Both the position numbers and the translations under genes were made by a program. DNA of 64,000 nucleotides from Oscillospiraceae bacterium (GTDB lineage Bacteria > Bacillota > Clostridia > Oscillospirales > Ruminococcaceae): the NCBI GenBank assembly GCA_029006135.1, contig JAQXGE010000033.1:22435-86434 (forward strand), written 5' to 3'. Positions 39,791 to 42,207 of the stretch are shown here, in pieces. Under the pieces are notes generated by a model. It had not been told where the DNA came from. It was given only the letters and a program-made list of their open reading frames with translations, and ran no database searches. Within the stretch, counting starts at the first letter, position 1, and each line of letters begins with the position of its first letter.

Positions 39791-41044
39791 ATGAAGAAAA
39801 TGAATGTTCGCACGTTTGCATCGCTCTGCCTTGGCGCCGTTTTGGCGGCAGGATGCGTGCTGCCCGCTGCGGCCCAGCCCGCGGACCCCATTGAGGTCAC
39901 CGAGGATATCACGGTTTCCGGTGACTATGACTGGACCCGCTTTGCCGATGACCACCTGACGATCAACGTTTACAACTGGGGTCTTTATATCTCGGACGGC
40001 TCCGATGAGAGTGTGGATGTTGTCTCGGCGTTTGAAAAATTGACCGGCATCAAGGTAAATTACACGACGTTTGACTCAAACGAAAGCCTGTACGCCAAGA
40101 TGAAATCCGGCGGCGCAAGTTACGATGTCATTTTCCCGTCCGATTATATGGTGGGCAAGATGATCAAAGAAGGGATGCTGGCCGAACTCGACTACGCCAA
40201 TATTCCCAACGCCGCCAACATCGGTGAGGAGTATCTGGGCTGGAGCTTTGACCCCGACAACGCTTACAGTGTTCCCTATACCTGGGGTACCACCGGCATT
40301 GTCTACAACACCACCATGGTGGAGGAACCGCCCACAAGCTGGGAGGATCTCTGGGATGTTGCCTACACCGGCAATGTGCTGATGTTCAATAACTCCCGTG
40401 ACGCCTACGCCATTGCGGCCAAAAAGCTGGGAATGTCGCTTAACCCTGCCAGCGTGGACGAAGTGGATTTGGTGATGAAGGAGCTTCAGTCACAGAAATC
40501 CGTGGTCCAAGCCTATGTCATGGACGAAATCTTTGACAAGATGGAGGGCGGCGAGGCCGCCATGGCTCCCTACTATGCCGGCGACGCGCTGACCATGATT
40601 GAGGACAACCCCGACCTTGCGTTTGTTCACCCCGAGGAGGGCGTCAACTTCTTTGTGGACAGTATGTGCATCCCGGCAACAAGCCGCAACAAGGAAGCCG
40701 CGGAAATGTTCATCAACTATCTGTGTGAGCCGTCGGTGGGCTACCAGAACTGCGATTTCATCGGCTACTCCACGCCGATTACCGAAGTGTGGGAAATGCT
40801 CGATGATGACCTCAAGTATAACCCCATCGCCTACCCGGACGAGTCCGTGATGGATAAGGCGGAAGTCTTTGTGACGCTGCCCGATGATGTCAACGCCGAG
40901 ATGGACGCCAAATGGAGTGAGATGAAGAGTTACGATGAATCTGGCAGCGGCTGGCTGGTTGTGGCCTTTATTGCCGGCGCTCTTATGATTTCAATCTTTA
41001 ACATCTGGCGCAAAATGCGTAAAAAGGTTCGGGACGATTATTAA
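39791..41044 (+). CDS. potD: Spermidine/putrescine-binding protein PotD with a C-terminal membrane anchor
   Basis: 417 aa. The signal peptide covers about 1-33. A Cys follows AAG at residue 22 but the lipobox is imperfect (Ala at -3), so cleavage after PAAA is also possible. The two-lobed PotD fold starts at LTINVYNWGLYIS, with FPSDYMVGKMIKEGML and PYTWGTTGIVYN. Unusually the protein ends in a hydrophobic helix (about 384-402) and a basic tail KMRKKVRDDY, so it is probably held in the membrane from its C-terminus. It closes the potABCD operon. Confidence 0.93.
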   Translation: MKKMNVRTFASLCLGAVLAAGCVLPAAAQPADPIEVTEDITVSGDYDWTRFADDHLTINVYNWGLYISDGSDESVDVVSAFEKLTGIKVNYTTFDSNESLYAKMKSGGASYDVIFPSDYMVGKMIKEGMLAELDYANIPNAANIGEEYLGWSFDPDNAYSVPYTWGTTGIVYNTTMVEEPPTSWEDLWDVAYTGNVLMFNNSRDAYAIAAKKLGMSLNPASVDEVDLVMKELQSQKSVVQAYVMDEIFDKMEGGEAAMAPYYAGDALTMIEDNPDLAFVHPEEGVNFFVDSMCIPATSRNKEAAEMFINYLCEPSVGYQNCDFIGYSTPITEVWEMLDDDLKYNPIAYPDESVMDKAEVFVTLPDDVNAEMDAKWSEMKSYDESGSGWLVVAFIAGALMISIFNIWRKMRKKVRDDY

Positions 41045-41186: not shown

Positions 41187-41918
41187 ATGCCTTTTACACA
41201 GGATTATAAGATTTATCGTTATGACGGGGATTTCCGCGGCATCCTCAAACCGGGTGCACTTCTTCGCTATAGCCAGCAGATTGCGGGGGAACACGCGGCG
41301 GCAATCGGCATCACCGATGAACTGTACGCCCGCACCCATACCGCCTATGTGCTTGCCAAACTGGCACTGCACTTTGACCGCGCGCCCCATGTGGATGAAA
41401 CGCTCACCGTGGCAACCGAGCCGGAAAAACTCAAGCGCGCCGTCAACCGCCGCGTGAACACATTCTATGACGAGCAGGGCCGGGAAGTGGCCTGTGTGGA
41501 CAGCCGCTGGGTGCTGATTGACACCGAGCGACGCATCATTCTGCGCCGCCACCCGGAGGAATTCCCCACTTCCTGCTGGGCGGAGAACGTGGAACGCGAA
41601 CTGCCCATGAAAATGACAAAGGTGCCCAAAGACCAGTGTGAACTTCTCGGGTGCCACCGTGCCGATTACAGCCGCTGTGATATGAACGGCCATCTCAATA
41701 ATACAATCTATGCGGACCTGATTTGCGATGCACTGCCCGGTGAGGTCTGGCAGACGATGACGGTTCAGGATATGGTGATAACCTACCACAAGGAAGTTCC
41801 GATGGGGGAGAGCCTGCGCCTGTGCCGCGCCCGCCTCGATGAAAACCGCTGGTTCTTCTCCGGCTGGAACGGGGAAACCTGCAATTTTGAGGCGGAAATC
41901 ACGCTAGCCCCGCTGTAA
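41187..41918 (+). CDS. Acyl-ACP thioesterase
   Basis: Hydrolyses acyl-ACP to free fatty acid. 243 aa made of two hot-dog domains. The first has YSQQIAGEHAAAIGI with the substrate helix; the second carries the catalytic Asn/His segment DMNGHLNNTIYADL. Length and layout match the bacterial FatA-like family (PF01643). The track begins 20 codons earlier; AAGGAG ten bases before the ATG at 41187 settles the start. It lies between potD and the sRNA-pilus region and is not obviously linked to either. Confidence 0.9.
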   Translation: MPFTQDYKIYRYDGDFRGILKPGALLRYSQQIAGEHAAAIGITDELYARTHTAYVLAKLALHFDRAPHVDETLTVATEPEKLKRAVNRRVNTFYDEQGREVACVDSRWVLIDTERRIILRRHPEEFPTSCWAENVERELPMKMTKVPKDQCELLGCHRADYSRCDMNGHLNNTIYADLICDALPGEVWQTMTVQDMVITYHKEVPMGESLRLCRARLDENRWFFSGWNGETCNFEAEITLAPL

Positions 41919-41969
41919 GAGGAAAAGGTTACAAAAGACTTCTAAATTATTACAACTTTTTTACAAAAT

Positions 41970-41985
41970 ACCATTGACAAATGGT
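41970..41985. promoter_or_regulatory. Palindrome covering the -35 box of the sRNA promoter
   Basis: ACCATT-GACA-AATGGT is a perfect six-base inverted repeat with the TTGACA in its middle. AAAAGGTTACAA occurs both about 50 bases upstream and at the -10. The palindrome is in the right place for a repressor that blocks polymerase. Confidence 0.5.
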
Positions 41986-42002
41986 TTCAAAAAGGTTACA
42001 AT
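41974..42002 (+). promoter_or_regulatory. Promoter of the candidate small RNA
   Basis: Perfect TTGACA and TACAAT separated by 17 bases, with no coding sequence following. Confidence 0.8.
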
Positions 42003-42008
42003 TTAGTT

Positions 42009-42098
42009 GCAAGCAAAAGATAAACAAAAATCTTTTTCATGTGTTCTTCTCCTCCTTTCTTAAAATCCCCGCCTATCCCTCAGGCGGGGATTTTTTTT
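42009..42098 (+). ncRNA. Candidate ~90-nt small RNA with anti-Shine-Dalgarno sequence
   Basis: Between a consensus promoter and a strong terminator is a ~50-base stretch that appears unpaired. It contains TTCTTCTCCTCCTTTCTT (42044-42061), complementary to AAAGGAGGAGAA ribosome sites. The 3' hairpin AATCCCCGCC/GGCGGGGATT (42064-42092) with T8 is the terminator. This is the plan of CU-rich trans-acting sRNAs of Firmicutes such as RsaE/RoxS and the Csr/Ccn-type RNAs. No credible ORF is present. Confidence 0.6.
42064..42098 (+). terminator. Intrinsic terminator of the candidate sRNA
   Basis: A ten-base perfect stem with a nine-base loop and eight T. Confidence 0.9.
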
Positions 42099-42174
42099 GC
42101 TTGTGCACAGCAATTTCTCCCCATTCTTATTCAGGTATCAGAAATCCGTACAGGTAAAACGGAATAGAGTATAA

Positions 42175-42207
42175 AAGAACGCCGGCAGGTCCGGCGTTCT
42201 TTTTTTC
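42175..42207 (+). terminator. Second terminator upstream of the pilus operon
   Basis: AAGAACGCCGG pairs with CCGGCGTTCTT across five bases and is followed by T7. The 75 bases between the two terminators hold no ORF. They include a TCCGT/ACGGA hairpin and a TTTCTCCCC stretch, so a second short RNA or a read-through backup is possible. Confidence 0.85.

Follow-up and report, generated by a model that had tools for sequence, protein, structure and literature searches.

An apparently uncatalogued small RNA of Gemmiger and related Ruminococcaceae with an unpaired core antisense to a translation initiation region

Small RNAs (sRNAs) of the RsaE/RoxS type carry a pyrimidine-rich anti-Shine-Dalgarno (anti-SD) motif. 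The csRNAs of Streptococcus, which form part of the CiaRH regulon, present both an anti-SD and an anti-AUG sequence in an unpaired region (PMC3091779, PMC4507080). They are driven by an OmpR-type two-component system, are defined by a CiaR box, TTTAAG-N5-TTTAAG, before the -10 element, and occur as several related copies per genome (PMC3091779). LhrC of Listeria (RF00616), a CU-rich family of five copies under OmpR-type two-component control, has three redundant CU-rich sites and binds a surface-protein mRNA at the initiation region, hindering translation (PMC4132741).

The RNA gene described here lies in a window of 64,000 nucleotides, the whole stretch of DNA that was analyzed, from a Gemmiger genome (Ruminococcaceae). 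A preliminary description had read a promoter, a CU-rich core and a terminator free of open reading frames (ORFs), which lie at positions 41974-42098, and had taken them for an sRNA with an anti-SD core that could not be assigned to a family. The first reading is borne out by the sequence, the ORF calls and the fold (Table 1), and the second is strongly supported by conservation, a covariance model and an Rfam scan. The promoter hexamers match the consensus at 11 of 12 bases. The minimum free energy of the fold is -27.3 kcal/mol (z = -5.5), to which the terminator contributes most. No ORF of at least 60 aa was called within the sRNA gene; the nearest ones around the locus are the upstream thioesterase gene, which ends at 41918, and ORFs from 42241 onward. 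A second strong terminator-like hairpin, AAAAGAACGCCGGCAGGTCCGGCGTTCTTTTTTT, is found at 42173-42203, between the sRNA and the pilus operon, and has no obvious transcript of its own.

Table 1. Coordinates of the sRNA gene and its candidate control region in the window.
Feature	Position	Strand	Basis or remark
Direct repeat TTACAA-N5-TTACAA (41950, 41961), candidate OmpR-family regulator site	41949-41967	+	Sequence reading
Promoter TTGACA-17-TACAAT	41974-42002	+	-35 at 41974-41979, -10 at 41997-42002; kept in Gemmiger and sister genera
Second repeat series TTTCAA/TTACAA/TTGCAA, 11-bp period, over -10 and start region	41985-42012	+	Sequence reading
sRNA, about 90 nt, from the predicted start through the T tract	42009-42098	+	Covariance-model match 42007-42096
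CU-rich core CTTTTTCATGTGTTCTTCTCCTCCTTTC	42032-42059	+	Unpaired in fold of 92-nt RNA
Anti-start element CUUUUUCAU, antisense of AUGAAAAAG	42032-42040	+	Gemmiger and nearly all long forms seen
Invariant 25-nt core TTTTCATGTGTTCTTCTCCTCCTTT	42034-42058	+	27 distinct Gemmiger loci
Anti-SD element CTCCTCCTTTC	42049-42059	+	Unpaired in 92-nt fold; hairpin internal loop in long forms
Intrinsic terminator and T tract	42062-42098	+	Stem 42062-42094, 13 pairs; compensatory changes in homologues

The reverse complement of the core, GAAAGGAGGAGAAGAACACATGAAAAAG, consists of a Shine-Dalgarno (SD) site, a spacer, an AUG and two lysine codons (AUG AAA AAG), so that CUCCUCC stands opposite the SD and the anti-start element opposite the start codon region. 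The anti-start element is an addition to the earlier account, which had noted the anti-SD sequence only. At the level of sequence, the locus presents itself as a conserved RNA gene whose unpaired core is the antisense of an initiation region. In a scan of genome contigs, split-pattern matches accompanied by the promoter came from Gemmiger and Fournierella, and the matches in other bacteria were usually gene starts encoding MKK or MKN, many of them of lipoproteins. A good SD, a spacer and AUG AAA AAG can be read in the reverse complement of every Gemmiger locus, as would be expected if the minus strand were the functional one, encoding a short MKK peptide with its ribosome site and AUG, the antisense likeness being a by-product. 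We find this scarcely credible, since the reverse frames, usually of 3-26 codons, are unrelated in sequence, about 20 nt separate the SD-like from the AUG-like part in sister genera, and the conservation of promoter and terminator sits on the plus strand. Single-base indels shift the reverse frame between near relatives; because it is also short and not conserved, it is not a gene, and the peptide was rejected as a candidate.

DNA of the sRNA is present in nearly every Gemmiger genome searched, with one core match per carrier genome. Conservation of promoter, CU core and terminator in close relatives, which the preliminary description had named as a test, was found in 27 distinct Gemmiger loci. 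The 25-mer is identical across them (the sole exception is one base-2 change outside the 25-mer), and the promoter hexamers are nearly invariant. The distance from the -10 element to the core ranges from 23 to 65 nt, and past the terminator the loci are unalignable, with column identity falling to 41%. A thioesterase gene is found upstream in many loci; the downstream gene is variable, in relatives often guaB or a PadR-type gene. The recurrence of guaB or thioesterase neighbors would fit an RNA that acts in cis on the gene behind it, as a leader or attenuator (of guaB in sister genera, of the pilus here), or one that derives from the thioesterase 3' UTR. Either reading is quite unlikely, as the downstream gene switches freely within Gemmiger while the RNA is invariant, and as the RNA comes with a conserved promoter of its own and with a strong terminator well ahead of the next gene. 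Moreover, a 17-nt pairing with guaB is limited to one species, and guaB was rejected as a target or cis partner on this ground. In many Gemmiger species (loci L002, L003, L004, L008, L013, L017, L022, L023 and similar ones), the sRNA is directly followed by an AT-rich palindrome-like promoter, TATATTATATGATATATAATATATA, behind which come a gene for a PadR-type regulator and another conserved gene.

Other genera of the family have a longer homologue, predicted at about 155 nt, with the common promoter, the 5' end TTGCAAGAAAGTTACA and the anti-start element. Downstream come a hairpin, with the anti-SD sequence CUCCUCCU exposed in its internal loop, and a terminator. Gemmiger lacks the hairpin and has the antisense elements joined at ribosome-site spacing, whereas in the sister genera they are separate, with the anti-SD sequence in the hairpin. 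Covariation in related genomes, for which the preliminary description had called, is found in the long-form hairpin and terminator, where 16 pairs changed on both sides, compared with 7.3 in shuffles (0/500). A covariance model built from the long forms only, without any Gemmiger sequence, recovers the window RNA with 45 bits (E = 1.9e-7). At E <= 0.01, it matches 17 of 126 genera, the weakest matches spanning the terminator only. The window RNA is homologous to the long forms with their covarying hairpin, and belongs with them to an anti-initiation sRNA family of the Ruminococcaceae that is apparently new. One related genus has two copies of the sRNA (L296 and L297, with L284, L290 and L291), the second of which is without CUCCUCCU. 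In L284, CUCCUCCU is absent, yet CUUUUUUCAUGUGUUUCCUUUC once more provides an antisense initiation site in full.

The anti-SD run is similar to the 16S rRNA tail of Firmicutes. The RNA might therefore be a non-specific decoy, in which the CCUCCUUUC run mimics the 3' tail of 16S rRNA and lowers the translation of strong-SD mRNAs generally, and this would also agree with the finding, described below, that the pairing does not favor lipoproteins as a class. We hold a decoy to be improbable, since it leaves the invariant CUUUUUCAUGUGUU half unexplained, which is kept family-wide even where the anti-SD sequence is remote or lost.

No Rfam family reaches threshold at the window locus, and a scan of the long-form relatives returned no sRNA family, its single hit being an unrelated T-box. 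Sub-threshold hits, including PyrR (34 bits) and GcvB (24 bits), were judged to be effects of composition or of the terminator. The RsaE/RoxS design, to which the RNA had first been compared, is a fair description in general terms, the pyrimidine-rich anti-SD motif being common to both; the window RNA differs by its anti-AUG element, and has no RsaE/RoxS match in Rfam, neither at the gathering threshold nor at E up to 10. A closer parallel is offered by the streptococcal csRNAs, since an anti-AUG element stands beside the anti-SD element in the core. Like them, the window RNA is intergenic and has its own promoter and an intrinsic terminator, direct repeats at the promoter (here a candidate site for a two-component regulator), unpaired anti-SD and anti-AUG sequences, and variants with and without an extra hairpin. 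In contrast to the csRNAs, the CiaR box TTTAAG-N5-TTTAAG is absent from the stretch 41900-42010, where the repeats are TTACAA-N5-TTACAA. There is one copy per Gemmiger genome, and two copies occur only in one other genus. No sequence homology was detected, the host belongs to a different bacterial order, and the target evidence points to solute-binding lipoproteins, not to comC. Because the CiaR box and csRNA sequence homology are absent, the window RNA is an analogue of the csRNAs and not a member of the group.

The likeness to LhrC lies in the CU-rich composition, the OmpR-type control (a candidate feature here) and the pairing with initiation regions (predicted here). However, the window RNA scores 23.1 bits against RF00616, compared with a gathering threshold of 110 bits, it has one antisense block (42032-42059) instead of three redundant CU-rich sites, and it is not a five-copy family. 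No small-RNA studies in Gemmiger or Subdoligranulum were found in the open-access literature searched. The RNA is a real and apparently uncatalogued sRNA of dozens of gut Ruminococcaceae, of a functional kind that is already known. With it, the csRNA/LhrC design reaches into abundant gut commensals, and anti-SD and anti-start elements can be compared in separated and in fused form.

Taken as a whole, we consider it probable that the locus encodes a trans-acting sRNA of about 90 nt under OmpR-family control, which blocks the initiation of a subset of MKK mRNAs. The RNA would be made from its own promoter, on which an OmpR-family response regulator would act via the 11-bp direct repeats. It would then pair, at the SD and the start codon, with some of the MKK mRNAs, chiefly those for solute-binding lipoproteins of uptake systems, and the pairing would block 30S binding. 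As judged from sequence, the anti-initiation mechanism is likely, and the targets and the regulator are plausible. Most likely, some nutrient-uptake lipoproteins would be switched off at the level of translation, rather than pilus genes.

The preliminary description had pointed to the adjacent pilus operon as one that the sRNA might control, and the sites upstream of the major pilin (AAGGAGGA) and the minor pilin (AAAGGAGG) can indeed pair with the anti-SD sequence. Target prediction against 5' ends, which it had suggested, found their pairing to be ordinary: 14-90% of 627 gene starts, taken from stretches of two relatives and from the window, pair as well as or better than the pilus gene starts. 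The pilus is not a conserved neighbor of the sRNA either. The link fails because the pilus genes pair unremarkably and the neighbors vary, and we regard it as very improbable.

In 13 Gemmiger genomes, eight exact complements of the 13-nt CUUUUUCAUGUGU away from the sRNA gene were examined, and every one of them is the start of a lipoprotein gene; in the long-form carriers, this is true of 10 out of 16. By their N-termini, most of these lipoproteins resemble solute-binding proteins, with a protein-family check on one only. There are 18 of the 13-nt sites in carriers (42 Mb) and 5 in non-carriers (39 Mb; p = 0.008, uncorrected for relatedness). The best target candidate, and a plausible one, is an amino-acid ABC-transporter binding lipoprotein, which is present in 34 of 35 genomes. 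Its start has CAC before the ATG in 13 of the 28 species with a usable start, about half of the species being without the site, compared with a background of 8 in the 627 gene starts. In the window's own genome, the pairing energy of this start is -29.9 kcal/mol, which places it among the top 0.3% of gene starts. The best-pairing start inside the window (-26.4 kcal/mol) is that of a potD-type (polyamine-binding-type) lipoprotein at 39791; its operon lies just upstream of the thioesterase gene. The energy scan was repeated with short segments, because the scan with long segments was dominated by looped duplexes. Lipoproteins as a class show no enrichment of pairing bases among the 627 gene starts. 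A general lipoprotein regulon was therefore rejected, and at most a subset regulon can be claimed.

A more far-reaching version, which we put forward tentatively and consider possible rather than probable, is that the sRNA is two-armed throughout the family, with a start-codon/MKK arm and a hairpin-held SD arm that together would brake lipoprotein uptake systems collectively. If so, the fusion of the arms in Gemmiger, to an exact antisense copy of a ribosome site, would amount to a natural experiment and suggest joint action of both on one mRNA. For sRNA work in Gemmiger, the locus provides a defined RNA gene, a structural model, a likely regulator class and concrete candidate targets.

A spacing of 11 bp between direct repeats is typical of OmpR-family regulators, and suggests a regulator of this family for the candidate repeats. 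Nearly all Gemmiger loci retain the upstream repeat, with a second half that reads TTAACA or TTTACA. The long forms extend the second repeat series by one further TTACA unit; in some sister genera, the upstream repeats are not evident. In two species (L020 and L021), the promoter spacer is replaced and GC-rich, the -10 element is TGTATAAT, and the upstream direct repeat is retained, which makes these promoters a natural experiment on promoter requirements. A search for triple TTACA repeats led to a different conserved element, TTTACA-N5-TTTACA-N5-TTTACC, upstream of a Na/Pi-cotransporter-type gene (L246, L248, L250, L251, L253, L254, L259-L261), which in several loci faces a phosphate-binding-type lipoprotein gene. 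It resembles the sRNA repeats without being identical to them, and is likely to be a Pho box of Gemmiger.
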